From an uncultured Clostridia bacterium (GTDB lineage: Bacteria > Bacillota > Clostridia > Oscillospirales > Acutalibacteraceae): 12,769 nucleotides of DNA. The position numbers were made by a program, and so were the translations under genes. Of the stretch, positions 910-10,568 are shown one piece after another. The notes under the pieces were generated by a model. It had not been told where the DNA came from. It was given only the letters and a program-made list of their open reading frames with translations, and ran no database searches. Numbering within the stretch: the first letter of the stretch is position 1; every line of letters starts with the position of its first letter. The stretch spans positions 1 to 12,769 of the forward strand of contig CAUCSW010000007.1 of the NCBI GenBank assembly GCA_958445555.1, given 5' to 3'.

Positions 910-1117
910 TGTCTTTTCTCTCCTTTATTTATGGGTAAAAGGTGTAAGGCAAGGGGTTATCAAGAAAGGCTCCCCCGCCGAGCGAATTTTCTTTTTTGCG
1001 CTCCCCTGTTTCGCCGCCCACCTGTTCCGTCGTCTCCTGTTCTGCCGTGGCGCTCCGACATCCGTTGACTTGAATCCGACGAGCGTCGAGCCGACTTAAA
1101 GCAGCAACCGGGCCTGC

Positions 1118-1265
1118 GGCAGCGCCGCGACGCGCCGAAGGCGCGGCAAACGGGCGACGGCAAGCAACAGGGCTGCCCCGATCCCGAATTTCCGTCGGGC
1201 TGATATTGACTGTCGCGCCCGTCGCCCGTTTTGCGCCCTTCTAAAGAAGGGCGCGCGGCGCTGCC
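1118..1265 (+). repeat. Four-way-junction repeat element, copy 1
   Basis: This is a 148-bp structured repeat found three times in the window. The outer stem is GGCAGCGCCGC (1118-1128) with GCGGCGCTGCC (1255-1265). The left arm is CGCGCC, loop GAA, GGCGCG (1131-1145). The inner stem is AAACGGGCGACGG (1148-1160) with its exact complement at 1219-1231. The right arm is GCGCCCTTC, loop TAAA, GAAGGGCGC (1233-1254). The parts abut almost without gaps, so they define a four-way junction around a 58-base core (1161-1218). It sits between a strong minus-strand promoter and nadE, so it would be carried in the nadE leader. The structure is read directly from the bases; the function is unknown. It could be a MITE- or REP-like mobile repeat or a structured RNA. 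Confidence 0.85.
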
Positions 1266-1292
1266 TGCGGTCGGTCTGCTGATTTAAGTCGG

Positions 1293-1707: not shown

Positions 1708-3156
1708 ATGAAACCTAAACATGAGCTTCTAAGCAATCTGGCGTGGAAATTCGGCGAGCGCATATCTGCACAGCTGATCTCAACGGTCGTGTCGATCATC
1801 CTTGCCCGCCTTCTCGAACCGTCCCACTACGGAACCGTTTCGATGGTAATGATCTTTATAACCATTGCGAATATTTTTGTCAGCGACGGTCTCGGCAGCG
1901 CTCTGATACAAAAAAAGGACGCGGATGAAGTCGACTTCTTCTCGGTGCTTTATTTCAACATAGGATTCTCCTGCATTTTGTATGTGATCCTGTTCTTCTC
2001 GGCACCGCTCATTTCGATGTTCTTCGGCGAAGGATATGAGGCTCTTACGCCCGTGCTCAGGGTTTTGGGGCTCAGGATCATCCTTACTGCGATAAACTCC
2101 ATCCAGCAGGCATACATCTCCAAAAAGATGATGTTCCGCAAGTTTTTTCTTGCCACCCTCGGAGGAACGATCGTCTCTGCGGTCGTGGGAATAGCCATGG
2201 CATACGGCGGATACGGCGTATGGGCTCTTGTGGCTCAGTATCTTGTCGGCACCTCGGTAAGCTCCGTCACTCTCGGCTTTGCCATCGGAAAAAGACCTAA
2301 GTTCGTTTTCTCGCTCAACCGTGTAAAGGCTCTGGTCCCTTACGGCATCCGCATTCTCGGAACGGGTCTTCTGATCACCGTTTACCAGGAGCTGCGGTCT
2401 CTGATAATCGGAAAAAAATATTCCACCGACGTTCTTGCGTTCTATGACAAGGGTCGGAGCTTCCCCCTTCTGATAGTTACAAATATCATCTCTTCGATAT
2501 CTGCGGTGCTCTTTCCGAAAATGTCGGAGGAGCAGGACGACCGACAGAAGCTCAAAAGCACGACCCGCAATTCTATCCGCTTCAGTGCGCTGATACTCTG
2601 CCCGATGATGCTGGGCCTTGCGGCGGTCGCCGACTCCTTTGTGCGGGTGCTGCTCACCGACAAATGGGTGCCGTGCGTTCCGCTGCTGCAGTTGTTTTGT
2701 ATAATATATCTGTTTCAGCCGATCCACACGGCAAATATGCAGGCGATAAAAGCGGTCGGCAGAAGTGATATTTATCTGAAGCTGGAGATAATCAAAAAGG
2801 TTATCGAGCTCGCGGTACTTCTTACGACCATGTGGATCAGCGTGGATGCAATGGTCATCGGTATGGCAGTATGCGCCACCGCCTTTACCTTTGTAAACGC
2901 CTATCCCAACATAAAACTGTTGAATTACGGCATAAAAGAGCAGATGGCGGATATCCTGCCGCCTGTTGTGATGTCGCTTATCATGGGCGCCGCCGTTCTC
3001 GGGGTCGGTCTTATCCCGATGCCGCTGATCGTCAAGCTGATCGTTCAGGTGGCGGTGGGTATCGCGGTCTACTTCGGCCTTGCCCTGCTCACCAAAAACA
3101 AAGAGCTTTTGCAGTTGTTAAAGCTGCTGCACATCCGAAAGGAGCGCTCGGAATGA
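1708..3156 (+). CDS. Wzx-type polysaccharide flippase (MOP superfamily)
   Basis: A 482-residue polytopic membrane protein of the oligosaccharide flippase branch related to WzxC and TuaB. This branch moves lipid-linked glycan units from the inner to the outer face of the cytoplasmic membrane. The N-terminal stretch LARLLEPSHYGTVSM (32-46) is typical of the family. About 12 to 14 hydrophobic segments are spread along the chain, for example near 21-36, 45-65, 84-105, 150-170 and 417-462. I chose the ATG at 1708 because GAAGGGA stands 6 bases upstream and the family-like sequence begins there. The GTG at 1606, with a stronger AAAGGAG, is a real alternative, while the ATG at 1489 precedes the predicted transcription start. 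The stop overlaps the next gene's start by four bases (ATGA), implying translational coupling. The substrate is not readable from the sequence. Confidence 0.88.
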   Translation: MKPKHELLSNLAWKFGERISAQLISTVVSIILARLLEPSHYGTVSMVMIFITIANIFVSDGLGSALIQKKDADEVDFFSVLYFNIGFSCILYVILFFSAPLISMFFGEGYEALTPVLRVLGLRIILTAINSIQQAYISKKMMFRKFFLATLGGTIVSAVVGIAMAYGGYGVWALVAQYLVGTSVSSVTLGFAIGKRPKFVFSLNRVKALVPYGIRILGTGLLITVYQELRSLIIGKKYSTDVLAFYDKGRSFPLLIVTNIISSISAVLFPKMSEEQDDRQKLKSTTRNSIRFSALILCPMMLGLAAVADSFVRVLLTDKWVPCVPLLQLFCIIYLFQPIHTANMQAIKAVGRSDIYLKLEIIKKVIELAVLLTTMWISVDAMVIGMAVCATAFTFVNAYPNIKLLNYGIKEQMADILPPVVMSLIMGAAVLGVGLIPMPLIVKLIVQVAVGIAVYFGLALLTKNKELLQLLKLLHIRKERSE

Positions 3157-4295
3157 CAGACTCCGTAAACAATACCGCAGTTGTAAGTGTGTCCCCCCGC
3201 ATATTTTTGTCCTCCCTGCAGGGACTAAGGACCGTCGCCTTTGCGGCTATATTTTTAAGCCACACGGGACTTGGTAATTTCGAGGCCTTGGGCGCTTGGG
3301 GCGTTTCGGTCTTCTTTATCCTGTCGGGATTTGTAATGCTTTACAGTTATTACGACCGACCCTGCCCGAAACCGGGGATCGCTTTTGCTTACAGAAAGAT
3401 CAAAAAACTTTATCCCCTGCATATAGCCACCATGGCGGCAGCCGCCGTTTATTGTTATTTTGTCTACGGTCAGGGCATTCTTAAAATTTTGACCGACATA
3501 GTCCTTCACTCCGCACTAATCCAGATCTGGATCCCGAACACGGCTTATTACTCCACCCTTAACGGGTTGGCTTGGTACCTCGCCGCCTGCGCATTCCTCT
3601 ATTTTGCATTTCCGTTTATACTCAAGCGTATGCAAAGAGCGAGCAGGAAAGAGGTGACGGCGGCACTTGCGATCCTGTTTATTCTTTAGATATCGGTCTC
3701 GGCGATCGCCTTTTTCTTCGGCGGCGAGGATAAAAGCAGCTGGTTTTCAATGCATTGGGTCACCTCTTACTGTCCCTGTACCCGGCTTCTCGATTTTGCT
3801 CTCGGCTGCTGTCTCGGTTGGCTCTTTCTCCATACCGAAAGGCAGGCTCTCTCGGCGCCCGCCGCAGGGATTGCACAGGCGGTCACGGTCGTTGCGGCTG
3901 CCGTCTCGTGCGTCGCTTACGCAAAAGGCGTTCCGTTCTTCGGCGGAGAATTCATAAAGTATGCACTTCTGTTTACGCCTACCACCGTTCCGCTCATTTG
4001 GCTCACCGCCCGCGGCACGGGATGGTTGTCACGGCTCCTGAATCTTAAACCTTTGGTTCGGTTTGCAAAGCTTACACCTTACACCTTCCTTATACACGGC
4101 GTTGTCATCAAATACTGCCGCACCGTTATAAGCAAGCTGGCAGGGCCCGTCAGCGGATATGCCGCCGGTAAATATATTGTCGCACTCGCGGCGCTTATAC
4201 TCACCGTTGCGGCAGCGCTTATATGGAACGCCCTTTCCGAATATGTTCGCCGCTTCTTGAATCAGAGACAAGACTCTGCGCGGCGGTCGCAATAG
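3153..4295 (+). pseudogene. Acyltransferase_3 family membrane O-acyltransferase interrupted by an in-frame TAG
   Basis: The frame encodes an OafA/YrhL-like acyltransferase that would transfer an acyl group to a sugar, probably decorating the glycan moved by the flippase. ATG at 3153 overlaps the flippase stop and follows GAAAGGAG by about 8 bases. Family marks are LQGLR with Arg26 and His37 (the R-x10-H motif), WGVSVFFILSGF (49-60), YRKIKKLYPLH (80-90) and, after the interruption, TRLLDFALG. Codon 179 is TAG (3687-3689), inside a hydrophobic segment. The same frame then continues without other stops to TAG at 4293-4295, giving 380 codons in all, the normal family length. The first part alone is 178 residues. 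The ATG at 3750 could begin a 181-residue second part but has no clear ribosome binding site. It could be a recent nonsense mutation, a sequencing error, or a stop that is read through; I favour the first two. Confidence 0.85.
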
Positions 4296-4696
4296 TTTTG
4301 ATCATCATGCCGCCGGGCAGCGGCAAAAGGGGCAGATACGGTTTTTAGTTTTGCCCCTTGTTCCTTGCTTGCCGATTTAATAAACGGTAAAAATACAAGC
4401 CCGCCCGACAAGACGAACGGTTGTTGCCGTCGGCCCCTTCGGGAGAGGCTTCATAAGAAAAAAAGGCAGCGCAATTAGAGCCGTACTCTAAAGGACAGTA
4501 AAAAACTGTGTAGAAAATTTCTACACAGTTTTTAATTTTGTCTTATACCGTAACAAGCAGGGAAAATGTATATCAAATTTTCCACACTTTAGGAGAACAT
4601 AAAACCCTTAACCAAAAGCAATGATAAAGCGGAGTGTGACAAGCGATTGCGGGGCTCTTGCGCGGCGCGGTGTCACCTCGGATGTGACACTCCCGC
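4296..4696. other. Intergenic region between convergent genes, hairpin-rich
   Basis: No gene is convincing here. Going rightward there is a hairpin of AAGGGGCA (4327-4334) with TGCCCCTT (4352-4359), the terminator at 4501-4540, an AT-rich hairpin GGAAAAT with ATTTTCC (4561-4583), and a 7-bp perfect hairpin GTGTCAC with GTGACAC (4670-4690) just past the stop of the minus-strand nucleotidyltransferase. The last has no T-run after it on the minus strand. A long open frame at 4608-5138 on the minus strand is in the wrong frame for the nucleotidyltransferase and shows no family features. Confidence 0.6.
4501..4540 (+). terminator. Bidirectional Rho-independent terminator
   Basis: AAAAACTGTGTAG (4501-4513) pairs perfectly with CTACACAGTTTTT (4521-4533) around a 7-base loop. 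A T-rich tail follows on the plus strand, and the A-run at the left end supplies one on the minus strand. It lies between the acyltransferase, which ends at 4295, and the convergent nucleotidyltransferase, so it can stop transcription from both sides. Confidence 0.75.
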
Positions 4697-5859
4697 TCAG
4701 AGTCCCAAATAGCTTATAAGCCTTGCCGCCTCGCTCCGCTCGGCTCTGTCGACGGTATGGCCGGTCTTTATTTCGTTTATCGCATTTTTCCTTCCTCTTC
4801 CGAAGACGAGATAAAAGCAGCGAATGACCCAGCAGAACGGCAGCAAAACAGGTGCTTTTACCAGCACGGGGTACCTTGCCTTCATTCGGCAGTAGGGCAA
4901 AAAAGCCTTTTTGAGCAGGTGCCCCAGCCTGCCGCCGTTTTTTATCTGACTGATCGCAATGCCGTTTCTTGAAATGCCGTATGTTCCGGCTTCGAGAGGT
5001 ATTCCTCCACAATCTCCGCGTCGCCGTCTGCCGGCTTGCCGTCAAGCCAATGCGCCATAAGCTTCTCGGAGGCAACGCAAAAATCATACAGTCCGCAGGA
5101 GACAAGCAGGTCCTTTCTGTTCTCGGCACAGACCCCAAAGCTGCGCTCGATCACATCAAGATCAATGATCGGTCTTATCCCGCAGCCGCCGTTTTCGACA
5201 TGCTTTGCTGCGTGGGTGAGGTGATACAGAAAGAAGAGATCCTCCCGCATGATCAGTCGATGCGGATCCGTCTCGTCGCGCGCCGCCGTATCCCATGCCT
5301 CTTCCAGCTTTTTGACCGCCCGTTCGAATCTTCCCTCCTCGACAAGGGTGAAGTGGAGTTCCAAAAAAACACCCGAATCGGTCTTATAGGTGATCTCGTG
5401 CGAACCTTTGTCCTTGATCTTCACGAAGCCCGCGGCACCGAGCGCGGCATCCGCCCCGCCGAGATTCTCGGGTCTTATAAGAATGTCAATATCACAGCTT
5501 GTCCTCATCCATGGCTCGGGATAGAGCGTTTCGATCACCGCCCCTTTAAGCGGCATATAATCCATTCCCGCCGAAGAAAGCGCACCAAACGCCCGATCGG
5601 CCTCATATTTCCGCCTTCCGTATCTGAAGACCGCGCTCATATACAACTCGGTCGCTTCTTTCGTGAGTTCGGCATCAGAGCCGTCTATCAGACCGCCGGT
5701 CAGCATTTTGTGTGCCGCAAGGTGGGCTACATCATGAGCCTTGGCGAGACTCAGAGCTTCCTTTACCGTCTCCCTGTCCGCCTTTTCGGACAAGGGCAGC
5801 GCTCTTTCCCTGCCGATCTCGGCACCTATACATAAGAACATAAAATCCCTTGAAGTCAT
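4697..5859 (-). pseudogene. NTP_transf_5-type nucleotidyltransferase, frameshifted
   Basis: This is a paralogue of the gene at 6382-7590. The first frame runs from ATG 5859 to TAA at 4942-4944 (305 residues). It carries the nucleotidyltransferase marks MPLKG (102-106), CDIDILI (122-128, the metal-binding acidic pair), LELH (166-169) and HLTHAAKH (213-220). After EEYL (about residue 288) the match to the paralogue moves to the -1 frame, near GAGAG at 4994-4998. From there GTYGISRNG and YPVLVKAPVLLPFCWV align with GTADGAS and YPVLEKAPVLLPLFWV, and the frame ends at TGA 4697-4699. The rejoined protein would be about 386 residues against 402 in the paralogue, so one base seems to be missing. The ribosome binding site is poor: GGGAGAG lies 13 bases before the ATG, and AAGGGA before ATG 5844 is an alternative. 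The family's reaction and substrate are not known to me; a nucleotidyl transfer to a glycan precursor is inference. Confidence 0.8.
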
Positions 5860-5958
5860 ATTAACGATTATTCTCTCCCTTGTCTCGTCCCGCCGTTTCG
5901 GCTTGTCCGCCGCGGTTTCCCCGCTTGATATCCCCCGTATCTGTTTTTGTGCCGCGCA

Positions 5959-6017
5959 CCCGAATCCCGAGTCCGAATCCGCACCCGACTCCCGAACCCG
6001 AGTCCGCGCCCGACTTC
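5959..6017. repeat. Degenerate CCCGAN simple repeat
   Basis: The tract is built of 6- to 7-base units such as CCCGAA, TCCCGAG, TCCGAA, TCCGCA and CCCGAC. It also looks like two imperfect larger copies, each starting with CCCGAA and ending with CCCGACT. It lies about 90 bases left of repeat copy 2. Similar CCGA-rich sequence lies left of copies 1 and 3. Confidence 0.6.
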
Positions 6018-6108
6018 TCAAGCCCAAGCCCCCGCACGAGCTTCGACGACCGCCGCCCGCTTCGGTCGATCGGCGGGTATATCGGCGGCTTAATGTTCTG
6101 CTGCCGAA

Positions 6109-6256
6109 GGCAGCGCCGCCCACGCCGAAGGCGTGGTAAACGGGCGACGGCAAGCCGCGGGGCTGCCCTGATCCCGACTTTCCGTCCGGCTGATATTCAC
6201 TATCCCGCTCCGTCGCCCGTTTCGCGCCCTCCCGAAGGAGGGCGCGCGGCGCTGCC
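6109..6256 (+). repeat. Four-way-junction repeat element, copy 2
   Basis: Same architecture and length as copy 1. The outer stem GGCAGCGCCGC (6109-6119) pairs with GCGGCGCTGCC (6246-6256). The left arm is CCACGCC, GAA, GGCGTGG (6120-6136). The inner stem AAACGGGCGACGG (6138-6150) pairs with 6210-6222, a perfect 13-bp match. The right arm is GCGCCCTCC, CGAA, GGAGGGCGC (6224-6245). Compared with copy 1, the left arm has a G-C pair changed to A-T and the right arm a T-A pair changed to C-G, so both arms keep their pairing. The core (6151-6209) is closely similar to copy 1. The left outer strand can also form an alternative hairpin, CTGCC-GAA-GGCAG, with bases just outside the element. Confidence 0.85.
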
Positions 6257-6381
6257 ATAATTACCGCTCGCCTGCCGCAGGGCGGCTTGTCTTTCCCTGC
6301 CGGCAATCTTTATCTATATCATCTGTCGACATTTTTTGTCGGCACCCGCTGACCGTTTCCGTTTTTTAAAAACCGAACCGT

Positions 6382-7590
6382 CTATCGATCCGAGCCGACG
6401 CCGAGCCCGATCCCGTGCCCGAAATCGGGGCTTAAACCTACCTCCGTCAGCATATTCCGAAACTCATCCACCTGCGAACTGCCCGACACCATAATACCCG
6501 TTATGGTCTTTTTTGCTTTTTTGCGGTGGACAAATGCGCGGTCAAAGAGTCTGACGACCCAAAACAACGGCAGCAAAACGGGCGCCTTTTCCAAAACGGG
6601 ATAAAATCCGCACATATTTCCATAAGGCAGGAACACCGCCGATAACAATCTTTTGCTGCGGGTCTTGTTCTCGCCCTTTGCGCGTCTTTTCAGTTCGTCG
6701 GAAACCGAAGCGCCGTCCGCCGTACCGAAGCTGCCGCTCCGCATAACAAATTCCGTGATCCTCGCCGTCGTCTCATCTTCTTCGCCGCCCATAAACCAGG
6801 CGGCGAGTGTCCTTTTTATGTTTTCATAAAAGTCCCTTAATCCAAGCTTGCCCAGCTCTTCGTTTATATAATCCCGGTCCATGTCGGGCTCCGACTTTTC
6901 GTAGACATATATATCCGTAAAATGACGCAACCCGACGCCGCCGTTTCTGAAATGCTTTGCCAAATGTGTAATAAGATAATCGAACTCGTCCTCGGAGGAC
7001 ATACGGTATTCGGAGGAACCCTCGCCCGTCGGACGGGCAAAGTCCCATCCGTCTCCCCAGTAGCGGACAAAGTCGCCGTTTGATTCCGAGACCACCCCGG
7101 TATGAAGCTCGACCGTTATTCCCTCTTTGTTTTTCCATTCGGATTGTCGGTCGCCGTCCCTTTTCGGTGCGAACCCCCGTTCGGACAACACCTTCGCCGC
7201 ACGCTCTGCCTCTTTGCGCCCTATAAGAAAATCGCAATCGCCCATCAGGCGGTATTCGCTGTGGGAATACTTCGGCTTGACCGACAGTCCTTTAAGCGGC
7301 ATAAACGGGATGCCGTTTTCGGCAAACGCCTTCTTAATATCGTCGACTGCACATAACTGCGCCCGATCGACAATAATGCAGCTTGCCGCGATCCTCCTTA
7401 GGTGGGCCATCTTCTCCTTGTCCGGCTTGTTTTCGGTGCGGGACAATCCCGCATAAAGGATCGGAAGTATTCCGTGCCGACGGCACAGTCGGACCGCCGC
7501 GGCAAGATCAAAATCATCGCTTATGACAACAGTAGTCTCCTCAATAACTCCGCGAATTATGGAAATGATGTCTTTTTCAAGTGCGGTCAT
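6382..7590 (-). CDS. NTP_transf_5-type nucleotidyltransferase family protein
   Basis: An intact 402-residue protein of the nucleotidyltransferase-fold family usually listed as uncharacterised (NTP_transf_5). Visible marks are FMPLKG (96-101), the acidic pair in GDCDFLI (117-123), VELH (160-163, likely the third acidic position), HLAKHF (209-214) and GVGLRHFTDIYVY (218-230). The C-terminal part has a hydrophobic YPVLEKAPVLLPLFWV stretch that is also found in the damaged paralogue. I chose ATG 7590 because AGGA lies 8 bases upstream; the ATG at 7605 lacks a binding site and abuts an AT palindrome. The gene follows the epimerase by 68 bases, so the two probably share a transcript. The last residues (GHGIGLGVGSDR) are encoded by CCGA-type simple sequence and may be a replaced tail. 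A role in sugar activation or transfer for the glycan is inference. Confidence 0.82.
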   Translation of the reverse strand: MTALEKDIISIIRGVIEETTVVISDDFDLAAAVRLCRRHGILPILYAGLSRTENKPDKEKMAHLRRIAASCIIVDRAQLCAVDDIKKAFAENGIPFMPLKGLSVKPKYSHSEYRLMGDCDFLIGRKEAERAAKVLSERGFAPKRDGDRQSEWKNKEGITVELHTGVVSESNGDFVRYWGDGWDFARPTGEGSSEYRMSSEDEFDYLITHLAKHFRNGGVGLRHFTDIYVYEKSEPDMDRDYINEELGKLGLRDFYENIKRTLAAWFMGGEEDETTARITEFVMRSGSFGTADGASVSDELKRRAKGENKTRSKRLLSAVFLPYGNMCGFYPVLEKAPVLLPLFWVVRLFDRAFVHRKKAKKTITGIMVSGSSQVDEFRNMLTEVGLSPDFGHGIGLGVGSDR

Positions 7591-7606
7591 ATACTCATTC
7601 CTCATA

Positions 7607-7658: not shown

Positions 7659-8759
7659 TTACCTTGCCAATATATCCGCTATTCTTTTGCAGGCAAAGCC
7701 GTCCCCATAGGGATTGCTCGCGTGCGCCATGGCGTCATATGCCTCTTTGTTTTCAAGCAGTTCTTTGAAATTCCGATATATTACCTCTTCCTCGGTACCT
7801 ACGAGCCTCAGCGTTCCCGCGGCTATTCCCTCGGGGCGCTCGGTCGTGTTCCTCATAACAAGCACCGGTTTTCCGAGAGACGGCGCCTCCTCCTGGATCC
7901 CTCCGCTGTCGGTCAGTATCATATAACTGCGCGACAGAAAATTGTGGAAATCCAGCACATCAAGCGGATCGATTATATGTATGCGGTCGCAGCCCGAAAG
8001 CTCCTCGGCAGCCGCTTTTCTCACTGCGGGATTCATATGTATCGGGTATATCGCCTTCACATCGGGGTGCTCCTCCATGATGCGGCGTATTGCCCTGAAC
8101 ATACGGTGCATGGGTTCGCCGAGATTTTCTCGCCTGTGAGCGGTTATGACTATCAGCCTGCCGTCGCTTGCCCATTCAAGCTCCGGGTGAGTGTAATCCT
8201 CCCGCACGGTGGTCTTGAGGGCGTCTATCGCGGTATTTCCCGTCACAAAAACCGTTTCGGGGTCCTTTCCCTCCCTTATGAGATTTGCCTTTGCCGTCTC
8301 GGTCGGGGCGAAATTATACCTCGCGACAATGCCCACCGCCTGACGGTTAAACTCCTCGGGATAGGGTGAATATATATCGTATGTGCGCAATCCCGCCTCG
8401 ACATGACCGACGGGTATCTGCATATAAAAGCAGGCGAGCGCGGTCGCAAATGTCGTTGTGGTATCTCCGTGGACCAGCACTGCATCCGGCTTTACCTCTT
8501 CGAGGACCGGTCGGATATTCATGAGTATACTGTCGGTTATGTCAAAAAGGGTCTGCTTTTCCTTCATAACCGAAAGGTCGTAATCCGGCACGACATTAAA
8601 GGCGGAAAGCACCTGATCGAGCATCTGACGATGCTGGCCCGTGACGCAAACCACCGTCCTGATCGTGTCCCTCGTTTTCAGTTCGTTAACGAGTGGACAC
8701 ATTTTTATTGCCTCCGGCCGTGTTCCGAAAACAAGCATTATGGTTTTCATTCTTGACAT
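7659..8759 (-). CDS. wecB/mnaA: UDP-N-acetylglucosamine 2-epimerase, non-hydrolysing
   Basis: This cytoplasmic enzyme interconverts UDP-GlcNAc and UDP-ManNAc. UDP-ManNAc is the sugar donor for the linkage unit of wall teichoic acids and for several capsules. At 366 residues it is of normal length. Family marks are clear and in order: FGTRPEAIK near the N-terminus, TGQHRQML, HGDTTTTFA, GHVEAGLRT, PYPEEFNR, TAHRREN, TDSGGIQEEA and MRNTTERPEG. The catalytic and substrate-binding residues in these motifs are present. ATG 8759 has AAGGA only 3 bases upstream. The ATG at 8750 gives the usual family N-terminus (MKTIMLVFGTRPEAIK) with AAGGA 12 bases upstream, so the start is uncertain by 3 codons. 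It heads a probable two-gene unit with the nucleotidyltransferase. A palindromic site lies just upstream at 8782-8804. Confidence 0.95.
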   Translation of the reverse strand: MSRMKTIMLVFGTRPEAIKMCPLVNELKTRDTIRTVVCVTGQHRQMLDQVLSAFNVVPDYDLSVMKEKQTLFDITDSILMNIRPVLEEVKPDAVLVHGDTTTTFATALACFYMQIPVGHVEAGLRTYDIYSPYPEEFNRQAVGIVARYNFAPTETAKANLIREGKDPETVFVTGNTAIDALKTTVREDYTHPELEWASDGRLIVITAHRRENLGEPMHRMFRAIRRIMEEHPDVKAIYPIHMNPAVRKAAAEELSGCDRIHIIDPLDVLDFHNFLSRSYMILTDSGGIQEEAPSLGKPVLVMRNTTERPEGIAAGTLRLVGTEEEVIYRNFKELLENKEAYDAMAHASNPYGDGFACKRIADILAR

Positions 8760-8781
8760 CAGTCCTTACCTGATTCTATTA

Positions 8782-8804
8782 TTGATCGGGATCAAGTGAT
8801 CAAG
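8782..8804 (-). promoter_or_regulatory. TTGATC inverted and direct repeats upstream of the epimerase; possible promoter and operator
   Basis: TTGATC-GG-GATCAA (8782-8795) is a perfect 6-bp inverted repeat, and GATCAAG occurs twice in tandem (8790-8796 and 8798-8804). On the minus strand the distal TTGATC could serve as a -35 box with TAATAG 16 bases later as a weak -10, so the inverted repeat would lie between them like an operator. This is an arrangement-based guess. Confidence 0.35.
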
Positions 8805-8964: not shown

Positions 8965-9001
8965 AAACCCGACCCCAAAGCCGACTCCAAAGCCGAATCC
9001 G
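8965..9001. repeat. CCGA-rich simple tract next to repeat copy 3
   Basis: Short units such as ACCCGACC, AAAGCCGACTCC and AAAGCCGAATCC follow one another, with AAAGCCGA repeated exactly. The tract ends 22 bases before repeat copy 3. A similar, shorter run (GAATCCGACGAGCG, GAGCCGACTT) lies at about 1072-1096, 21 bases before copy 1. Confidence 0.5.
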
Positions 9002-9023
9002 CTTGAAGGACAAACCGACCGCA

Positions 9024-9173
9024 GGCAGCGCCGCCCACGCCGAAGGCGTGGCAAACGGGCATCGTCACATTTTCGTCTTTCTGAATGCCCTGCTTTTTTC
9101 GGCAGTGTGCGTTTATTTATCTCGCTTTGCCGCCCGTTTCGCGTCCTTCTTTAGAAGGACGCGCGGCGCTGCC
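9024..9173 (+). repeat. Four-way-junction repeat element, copy 3, with a different core
   Basis: The outer stem GGCAGCGCCGC (9024-9034) pairs with GCGGCGCTGCC (9163-9173). It is extended by CCGAC (9015-9019) with GTCGG (9174-9178) across a 4-base bulge. The left arm is CCACGCC, GAA, GGCGTGG (9035-9051). The inner stem is shortened to AAACGGGC (9053-9060) with GCCCGTTT (9132-9139). The right arm is GCGTCCTTC, TTTA, GAAGGACGC (9141-9162), with a C-G to T-A change relative to the other copies that keeps pairing. The 71-base core (9061-9131) is T-rich and unrelated to the core of copies 1 and 2. The right half overlaps the last 18 codons and stop of the ATPase gene on the other strand. Confidence 0.83.
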
Positions 9174-10568
9174 GTCGGCCCGATTGCCCGTAAAACGGGT
9201 TCGGCTCTCGGCTTCGGCATCGGGGAATCGTATGCTGCCCCACCTTGCGGGATTCCCGCGAAGTCCGGAGAGTCCCCCGTCGTCATCGGGCATCTCAAAA
9301 CAGAAGCATTCTCTGACGGCGTCAAGTCGATCCAAGAAGCCATCCTTCACTCCGTAAAGCTCCAGGTCGGCAGAATAAATTCCTCCGACAAGCCCCGCCA
9401 AGTCGGCGTTTATCGCGATCTCGGAGACCGTTACCCCTTCCCGCGCGCTCGGTGCGTTCGTTGTGGTCGGTGCGCCCGATGTGTTTGATGCGCTCGGCTT
9501 GCTCGGTGTGCCCTCGACAGGAGCGGTGTCGAAGTTGCCTACCGCGGCTCTCCTGCGGTCGAACAGGATCGTTCTCACCAGCAGCTTTTCCGAGCGACAA
9601 TCCGACTCGACCGACACGGTAAAGCGCACTTTTTTATCCTTTACGCCTTCGACAACAACGCTTTTAAGTCTTATCCCGTCGGCGGAGTCGCCGTACCTCT
9701 TTCTGTCGGACAGATCGTTTACCCGCTCTATTTCGCTTTCGAAGACATCGGTGTACTTTGCGATCCCGCTTTCGGCGTCGCCGTCAAATATCACCTTGCC
9801 TTTATCGAGAACGATGCATCTGTCGCACAGGCTTCTCACCGTCTCCATATTATGACTGACATACAAGACCGTCCTGCCCTGCTTTGCCGCCGCGGTGCGC
9901 ATCTTGTTTATGCACTTTTTTCTGAACTCAATATCTCCGACCGCGAGCACCTCGTCCATTATCATAATGTCACTGTCAAGATGCGCCGCCACAGAGAAAG
10001 CGAGCTTGACATACATTCCGCTTGAATACCTTTTTACGGGGGTGTCGATAAACTCCCCGCATTCGGAAAACTCAATTATTTCATCTATTTTGGATGCCGT
10101 TTCGGCGCGGCTCATCCCGAGGATCGCGCCGTTGAGGTAAATGTTTTCTCTTCCCGTCAGCTCGGGATGAAAGCCCGTTCCCACCTCAAGCATGCTGGAC
10201 ACCCTGCCGTTAAGGTATATAGTGCCCGCCGACGGCGCGGTGATCCTTGAAAGCAGTTTTAAGAGGGTCGATTTTCCGGCACCGTTGCGGCCTATTATGC
10301 CCACGGCTTCCCCTCTTTTTATTTCCAGATTGATTCCGTCAAGCGCGGCGAATTCATCCTCCGCCAGTTTTCTTCCCGAAGAGGTGACGCCGCCCGTACG
10401 GCGTCCGTCGGATCCGCCCGCGGTTCTGATCTTTCGGTTGGGATCCTCTTTTCCCAAGATCCGCGCAGTCCGACTTTGTATATCCCTTTGCAGTGTGCCG
10501 CCGCCTATTTTTCCGAGACGGTAGACCTTTTCGACGCCGTCGATCCTGATCGCAATGCCGTTATCCAT
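9117..10568 (-). CDS. ABC polysaccharide/teichoic acid exporter, ATP-binding subunit (Wzt/TagH-like)
   Basis: The 483-residue protein is the ATPase of a two-component exporter that drives glycan across the cytoplasmic membrane together with the permease encoded 11 bases upstream. Walker A is GRNGAGKST (93-101), the signature is YSSGM (181-185), Walker B is IMIMDE (201-206) and the switch histidine is His239. From about 290 a C-terminal domain of the Wzt type follows, which in that family can bind the glycan. It is interrupted by a Ser/Thr/Pro-rich insert (about 350-378) and ends near GSIRF (444-448). Residues 466-483 and the stop are encoded inside repeat copy 3, so the original C-terminus was probably replaced. 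Another poorly conserved insert lies near 40-68. The start at 10568 has GAGGAGG 6 bases upstream. Whether it exports teichoic acid, O-antigen-like glycan or capsule cannot be told. Confidence 0.92.
   Translation of the reverse strand: MDNGIAIRIDGVEKVYRLGKIGGGTLQRDIQSRTARILGKEDPNRKIRTAGGSDGRRTGGVTSSGRKLAEDEFAALDGINLEIKRGEAVGIIGRNGAGKSTLLKLLSRITAPSAGTIYLNGRVSSMLEVGTGFHPELTGRENIYLNGAILGMSRAETASKIDEIIEFSECGEFIDTPVKRYSSGMYVKLAFSVAAHLDSDIMIMDEVLAVGDIEFRKKCINKMRTAAAKQGRTVLYVSHNMETVRSLCDRCIVLDKGKVIFDGDAESGIAKYTDVFESEIERVNDLSDRKRYGDSADGIRLKSVVVEGVKDKKVRFTVSVESDCRSEKLLVRTILFDRRRAAVGNFDTAPVEGTPSKPSASNTSGAPTTTNAPSAREGVTVSEIAINADLAGLVGGIYSADLELYGVKDGFLDRLDAVRECFCFEMPDDDGGLSGLRGNPARWGSIRFPDAEAESRTRFTGNRADGSAARPSKEGRETGGKAR

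Follow-up and report, generated by a model that had tools for sequence, protein, structure and literature searches.

Gene setting and anatomy of the repeat

The window, meaning the whole 12,769-nucleotide stretch of DNA that was analysed, begins on the left with a partial NAD+ synthase gene on the minus strand (its family match falls under the full-length cut-off), followed by copy 1 of a repeat and by a Wzx-type flippase and an acyltransferase on the plus strand. Then come minus-strand genes with the other two copies among them, in the order NTP_transf_5, copy 2, a second NTP_transf_5, wecB, copy 3, an ABC-export ATPase and permease, and TrkH. All three copies share one orientation, and each is found 208-264 bases upstream of where a minus-strand gene is inferred to start (NAD+ synthase, NTP_transf_5 and wecB); three copies would agree in orientation by chance in one case out of four. 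A Pfam scan of 16 ORFs, out of 62 of at least 60 aa plus the open left ORF, gave no gene of the element's own; the ORFs crossing copies 2 and 3 (5880-6260 and 9003-9488) matched no Pfam family, and none of the 16 crosses copy 1. No transposase, RAYT gene or recombinase was found among the window ORFs examined.

Several features of the surrounding genes were recorded alongside. The two NTP_transf_5 paralogues flanking copy 2 (4942-5865 and 6382-7605, minus strand) are 29% identical over 199 positions. The acyltransferase is apparently split (2832-4295, plus strand), with the ORF at 2832-3689 matching positions 3-163 of the 326 of Acyl_transf_3 and the remainder lying in another frame (3750-4295), which has no Pfam match of its own and was judged by eye to be membrane-protein-like; this seems to be a frameshift, a pseudogene or an assembly error. 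A 15-bp hairpin flanked by A/T-rich ends (4501-4533), which lies between the converging acyltransferase and nucleotidyltransferase genes, looks like a bidirectional terminator; a trpB motif match that overlaps it on the minus strand stays below threshold (33 bits, with 59 required). A sigma-70-like site (11/12) at 8753-8782 on the plus strand lies upstream of wecB and points away from it, towards copy 3; sites of this kind with at least 9 matches number 12 in the window, compared with 6.2 expected.

Table 1. Positions of the repeat copies, their parts and outer arms, and the reading frame that ends in copy 3
Feature	Coordinates	Strand	Basis or remarks
Copy 1 core	1118..1265	+	fold, alignment, covariance model
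Copy 1 parts	outer stem 1118-1128/1255-1265; left hairpin 1131-1145; inner stem 1148-1160/1219-1231; right hairpin 1233-1254; middle 1161-1218		
Copy 2 core	6109..6256	+	fold, alignment, covariance model
Copy 2 parts	outer stem 6109-6119/6246-6256; left hairpin 6120-6136; inner stem 6138-6150/6210-6222; right hairpin 6224-6245; middle 6151-6209		
Copy 3 core	9024..9173	+	fold, alignment, covariance model
Copy 3 parts	outer stem 9024-9034/9163-9173; left hairpin 9035-9051; inner stem 9053-9060/9132-9139; right hairpin 9141-9162; middle 9061-9131		
Copy 1 left outer arm	1091..1117		complementary to 1266-1292; related to copy 3 right arm on the other strand
Copy 1 right outer arm	1266..1292		13 bases beside the core match copy 3 left arm on the other strand, 12/13
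Copy 3 left outer arm	8991..9023		complementary to 9174-9206
Copy 3 right outer arm	9174..9206		within the lengthened 3' end of the ABC-transporter ATPase frame
ABC-transporter ATPase, polysaccharide-export type by best family matches	9117..10568	-	last residues from copy 3 and its arm

The initial annotation had reported three copies of 148, 148 and 150 bp, and these were found where it had placed them (Table 1), with a mean column identity of 85% in the three-row alignment. In all three copies both ends are one module in inverted orientation, made up of GGCAGCGCCGC, a hairpin, one base and AAACGGGC, and in copies 1 and 2 the module is extended beyond AAACGGGC by GACGG. The left hairpin, of 17-18 nt, carries a GAA triloop, and the right hairpin, of 22 nt, carries a tetraloop that varies freely, as had been noted (TAAA, CGAA, TTTA). 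The terminal inverted repeats, again in 3/3 copies, consist of a perfect 11-bp outer repeat and an inner repeat of 8-13 bp. Because these terminal inverted repeats each hold a hairpin at the same place, the copies take the shape of a cross, or four-way junction, which is a consequence of the ends and is not in itself the sign of a special RNA. The initial interpretation is supported in part. Mobility of the MITE or REP kind and a selected or maintained fold are both compatible with the findings, and the junction needs no explanation separate from that of inverted, hairpin-bearing ends.

The copies have G+C contents of 0.70, 0.72 and 0.59, respectively, compared with 0.53 for the window. The middles of copies 1 and 2 (58 and 59 bases) are clearly related, with an alignment score of 78 against a shuffled mean of 15.5 (p ~0.001, the floor of 1000 shuffles, with slightly shifted limits). 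In the same kind of shuffle comparison, also with slightly shifted limits, the 71-base middle of copy 3 showed no relation to that of copy 1 (p 0.29) or copy 2 (p 0.17). As judged from these three sequences, the middle is exchangeable, being common to copies 1 and 2 and different in copy 3, and no gene was found in it. As a separate observation, the bases preceding copy 2 together with its first bases (6101-6115) read GCTGCC-GAA-GGCAGC, which looks like the right tip of another copy abutting copy 2 with a 3-base spacer; the likeness amounts to six matching bases only and may be due to chance.

Fold, paired changes and the question of RNA or DNA

Minimum-energy folds bore out the fold proposed in the initial annotation, with an 11-bp outer stem, a GAA-triloop left hairpin, a 9-bp right hairpin and inner stems of 13, 13 and 8 bp in copies 1 to 3. 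Compared with 200 shuffles of each copy, the fold energies gave z = -6.26, -7.93 and -6.55, and in each case none of the 200 was as good. Pairing is present in 96.7% of the 120 alignment cells of the three rows, and the left hairpin of copy 1 has 6 pairs and an A/G mismatch. The paired stem changes described earlier were likewise recovered, one in the left hairpin (A-T/G-C) and two in the right (C-G/T-A and T-A/C-G). Three of the 40 pairs are therefore changed on both sides, a number reached by 20 of 500 shuffles, while six slid controls gave 0 or 1. The 11 pairs of the outer stem are all invariant and so are uninformative on covariation; among the 13 inner pairs, 9 are invariant, one varies on one side and three are broken in copy 3, where one G-T is also found. 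The covariation evidence is these three pairs, all within the two hairpins.

With two substitutions falling at random on the 32 hairpin-stem positions (the extra mismatch of copy 1 set aside), the chance of restoring a pair is ~0.011 per copy, which makes a chance origin of the paired changes unlikely and stays compatible with mutation specific to hairpins. The three changes fit selection on the fold and also fit mutational correction inside hairpins, and selection on the fold, resting on three pair changes, is plausible. Template-switch correction is established for quasi-palindromes. If the repeat were an old duplicated intergenic palindrome, template switching within its hairpins would copy changes to the partner base without selection or function, and the paired changes would be few and sited in the two hairpins, as all three are. 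This account leaves both the exchanged middle and the presence of copies at three separate sites unexplained, and we consider it very improbable.

A covariance model was built from the three copies and searched against the window. It returned three plus-strand places at 153.6-167.5 bits, with nothing else reaching E 10 apart from the same three places on the minus strand at 48-59 bits, which match because the fold is nearly symmetrical. With its C-G closing pair, the GAA triloop is similar to DNA mini-hairpins of very high stability; an argument from this likeness was dropped, since invariance over three copies is too little to support it.

The repeat had not been recognised as a named RNA class, and this held in Rfam searches of the window and of each copy alone, in which no family reached its cut-off. 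The best scores belong to long-hairpin microRNA precursor models and lie far under the cut-offs, the highest being 32.4 bits against a cut-off of 168 (MIR1437, copy 1). A tRNA-like element was considered and dropped, and integron attC sites, retron RNA and pieces of group II introns were dropped on their anatomy together with the absence of Rfam matches. The RNA folds of the two strands are close in energy for copies 1 and 2, and for copy 3 the minus strand is better by 9.3 kcal/mol; for copies 1 and 2 DNA folds were calculated as well, and in these the two strands are alike. G-U wobble pairs are balanced, with a total of 9 counted on the plus strand and 8 on the minus strand, and a strand preference drawn from them was abandoned. 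None of these results clearly tells whether the fold acts as RNA or as DNA.

These folds bear on whether the copies could be a structured RNA element, either a cis-acting leader or processing signal or a small RNA, read at each of the three copies from the minus strand together with the gene downstream. The great stability of the fold on either strand, the better minus-strand fold of copy 3, the paired stem changes and the regular placement of all copies upstream of minus-strand starts speak for such an element. However, the downstream genes have no evident common function, the shared orientation has the one-in-four chance given above, and G-U pairs are not richer on either strand. In addition, no Rfam family exceeded its cut-off, nothing like a promoter or terminator was called inside any core, and copy 3 overlaps the end of a coding region. 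We regard a structured RNA as unlikely.

Outer arms and the ATPase end at copy 3

Pairing in copies 1 and 3 continues outward for ~27-33 bases beyond the core, a feature that the initial annotation had missed. Including the 11-bp outer stem in both cases, 1091-1129 is 79% complementary to 1254-1292, and 8991-9034 is 77% complementary to 9163-9206. Taken over 40 bases, the two flanks of copy 1 complement each other, as do those of copy 3 (both at p 0.002, the floor of 500 shuffles), and those of copy 2 do not (p 0.275). The arms of copies 1 and 3 are also swapped left for right relative to one another (p 0.006 each way). As the arm tests comprise 15 comparisons, in which two other arm pairs score p 0.016 and 0.026, the value of 0.006 alone is modest, and we take the 12/13 match beside the core (Table 1) to be the stronger fact. 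The swap may mean that the core entered two palindromic repeats in opposite orientations, or that the core was flipped, or that a longer element lost its arms at copy 2.

When the 35-base flanks were joined as if the core were absent and compared with 502 background sites, those of copy 1 folded better than all, those of copy 3 were matched by 6 sites and those of copy 2 by 8. Against shuffles, joined flanks of 27, 35 and 45 bases gave z of -4.69, -4.05 and -2.74 for copy 1, -1.41 (p 0.09), -3.69 and -3.47 for copy 3, and -1.82, -2.5 and -1.89 for copy 2, where the folding comes from hairpins within each flank. The 13-base arm motif CARACCGACCGCA, allowing up to 3 mismatches, occurs 21 times in the whole window compared with 7.2 expected (0 of 200 shuffles had as many), an excess that is unexplained; outside the two arms, no window match has fewer than 2 mismatches. 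The other arm motif shows no excess in the window (10, with 9.2 expected).

One reading of the arms is that the core inserts preferentially into existing palindromes, so that the arms of copies 1 and 3 would be the halves of a target belonging to a second repeat family, entered in opposite orientations; this is a version of the mobile-repeat reading given below, with a defined target. Complementary and swapped arms, the joined 35-base flanks of copies 1 and 3 that beat shuffles, and the excess of near matches to the arm motif all point in this direction, and YPAL is reported in PMC2229807 to enter or adjoin dyad-symmetric targets. The pattern is nevertheless drawn from two sites only, and copy 2 is without arms although its flanks, when joined, still fold somewhat better than shuffled sequence. 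Copy 3 is not significant at 27 bases (p 0.09) and is equalled by 6 of the 502 background sites at 35, the motif outside the arms always has at least 2 mismatches with no excess of its companion, and two other arm pairs score p 0.016 and 0.026 among the 15 comparisons. Insertion into palindromes is, on balance, quite unlikely. A little more speculative is a mobile repeat family of gut Clostridia whose enzyme would recognise the four-way junction itself, both hairpins and both stems together, rather than a linear end, and which would insert into palindrome centres in either orientation with its middle exchangeable; we would call this a long shot.

The swapped arms would also result if the core were an invertible segment that a recombinase flips between its 11-bp inverted repeats, moving the outer arms relative to the core. 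Against this, no recombinase is present among the ORFs examined, no promoter-like site was called inside a core, and several copies with a different middle would go unexplained; we find an invertible segment scarcely credible.

The ATPase frame crosses the right arm of copy 3, enters the core and stops at 9117. A protein search with ATPase residues 300-483, in which 2463 candidates were scored, returned two relatives at E <= 1e-5, which share 95% and 82% identity with it over 86% of the part searched. Both agree with the window ATPase through NPARWGSIRFPDAEAESR and then read DR-stop, their ends being ...AEAESRDR, where the window reads TRFTGNRADGSAARPSKEGRETGGKAR. The stop of the relatives corresponds to a position three to four codons into the outer arm of copy 3, with the outer edge of the arm at 9206 and the first differing codon at 9198-9200. 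Such differing ends are what an insertion missing from the relatives would give, which falls short of proof, and a changed stop codon in a diverged arm would give the same protein ends. In copy 3, a repeat supplies the C-terminus of a transporter ATPase. Elsewhere in this protein, an Ala/Pro/Ser/Thr-rich linker (9441-9536, minus strand, residues ~345-376) varies in length between close relatives, one of which, P0122, has 15 more linker residues than the window ATPase.

A probable short mobile repeat and its relation to known elements

We conclude that the element is probably a short non-autonomous mobile repeat, similar to a MITE or REPIN, with a probability of roughly 0.6. This reading is supported by the presence of copies at three separate sites, the replaceable middle, the inverted end module, hairpin changes that are paired bar one mismatch and the differing ATPase ends, and we also count for it that Pfam gave the element no gene of its own and that no Rfam family was over cut-off. 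Against it are the lack of a transposase among the ORFs examined, the failure to find a clean target-site duplication, the G+C-rich copies, and the single orientation at 208-264 bases from minus-strand starts, as a cis-acting element would show, although in three copies only. Movement, an enzyme of transposition, its recognition of the hairpins and any effect on mRNA are inferred. A transposase encoded elsewhere would recognise both hairpin-bearing ends, either as folded single strands, as PMC8266576 describes for TnpA-REP and the IS200/IS605 transposases, or as paired inverted repeats, and would move whatever sits between the two ends. Selection by this transposase would keep the hairpins paired and let the loop and middle drift. 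Copies would settle between genes, where transcripts would fold stably and, as a by-product, may alter mRNA stability.

The kind of element is already known. Bacterial MITEs such as Correia/NEMIS, ERIC and YPAL/RU-2 are described in PMC2229807 and PMC10969869 as similarly intergenic, ~100-200 bp long and bounded by inverted repeats, with transcripts predicted to form long, stable folds. The same sources describe YPAL as not A+T-rich, as having internal inverted repeats and as entering or adjoining dyad-symmetric sites. In contrast to the single long stem loop of those descriptions, the copies here carry a pair of opposed hairpins, placed alike in the two repeats, and for them no source IS is known and no target duplication is established. 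Direct repeats near the copies are 8 bases long at copies 1 and 2 and 4 bases long at copy 3; 41 of 614 background sites reach at least 8, and the 8-base repeat of copy 1 overlaps its own terminal repeat. As in MITEs, there is no transposase gene within the element, 148-150 bp being too short for one. MITEs are typically A+T-rich, a trait that is typical rather than defining and that is absent from these copies at the G+C contents given above.

REPINs, or REP dimers, which are associated with RAYT (TnpA-REP), likewise consist of two inverted hairpins around a spacer; in many REP families, according to PMC3733652, unlike elements often form dimers. Here, in contrast, an inverted repeat of 11 bp plus 8-13 bp encloses each hairpin. 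The exact GTAG/CTAC tag was absent from every core and from 60 bases on each side of it. In CGTC-tagged REPs, an unpaired CGTC stands at one end of an 8-9-bp stem. CGTC or GACG occurs in each copy here, but at no unpaired hairpin-side place common to the three; it falls within the inner stem of copies 1 and 2, adjoins the left hairpin in copy 1 only, and is found at the right edge and inside the right hairpin in copy 3 only. TIRtrons (TIR-associated tyrosine transposases) are described in PMC3733652 as having long TIRs, some of which are self-complementary in part or throughout (a figure legend speaks of 'double palindromic TIRs'), and certain species are said to hold dispersed families of TIRs. 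Unlike the present copies, beside which no transposase gene was seen, those TIRs surround transposase genes, and the likeness is one of description. The closest systems in form are REP dimers and the self-complementary 'double palindromic' TIRs of TIRtrons, and the closest in behaviour are small MITEs such as YPAL. The Rickettsia palindromic elements (RPE) described in PMC2229807 and PMC10969869 also join reading frames, as copy 3 does with the ABC ATPase; by comparison, copy 3 gives a C-terminal tail only, and copies 1 and 2 lie outside recognised domains.

Further copies were sought in several collections. In the contigs of 84,980 species genomes, a specific left-end pattern matched by all three copies was found in 1 stretch, from a Sphingomonas MAG, and this was rejected as a chance match with the right end absent in the ~300 bases after it. 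Seven patterns searched in viral contigs matched 3, 0, 3, 68, 0, 0 and 8 stretches (82 in total), none of which was seen with a right end, as judged by eye for the two patterns with 3 stretches (the L008 stretch ends early) and by exact search for GCGGCGCTG within 400 bases for those with 68 and 8. The covariance model, run on 72 viral loci (L004, L006-L008 and L056-L123, leaving aside L001-L003, L009-L055 and L124-L131), gave 36 matches up to E 10, the best at 18.3 bits and E 0.25. BLAST against plasmids and phages returned 4 and 1 records, respectively, with short partial matches covering at most 27% of copy 2. A protein search with the peptide derived from the repeat covered 489 candidates (~250-794 residues eligible) and found none at E <= 10. 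No further copy was found in these collections, and therefore the family in its exact form is narrow or its hosts are missing from them. In the open-licence literature on such repeats in Clostridia/Firmicutes, no paper apparently describing this repeat was found among the matches listed.

If the element is mobile, it offers a compact natural case for asking how hairpins in terminal repeats are recognised, whether as folded single strands, paired repeats or a junction, and does so in a host group whose short repeats are little described in the open-licence literature found. Direct repeats spaced through a polysaccharide gene cluster, as here, could also recombine its modules.

A gene of this cluster was also sought among viruses. 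WecB was found at 47 loci in viral contigs, 34-38% identical to the window protein except for one short 91% match (L055), and L055 was set aside as a relative of the window, sharing at most 19 bases with it at a G+C content of 0.43. Among 120 listed relatives of the window WecB, which suggest that the host is related to gut Clostridia, the nearest named ones belong to Ruminococcus sp. CAG:382 and to Christensenellaceae/Eubacteriales MAGs, at 85-86% identity.
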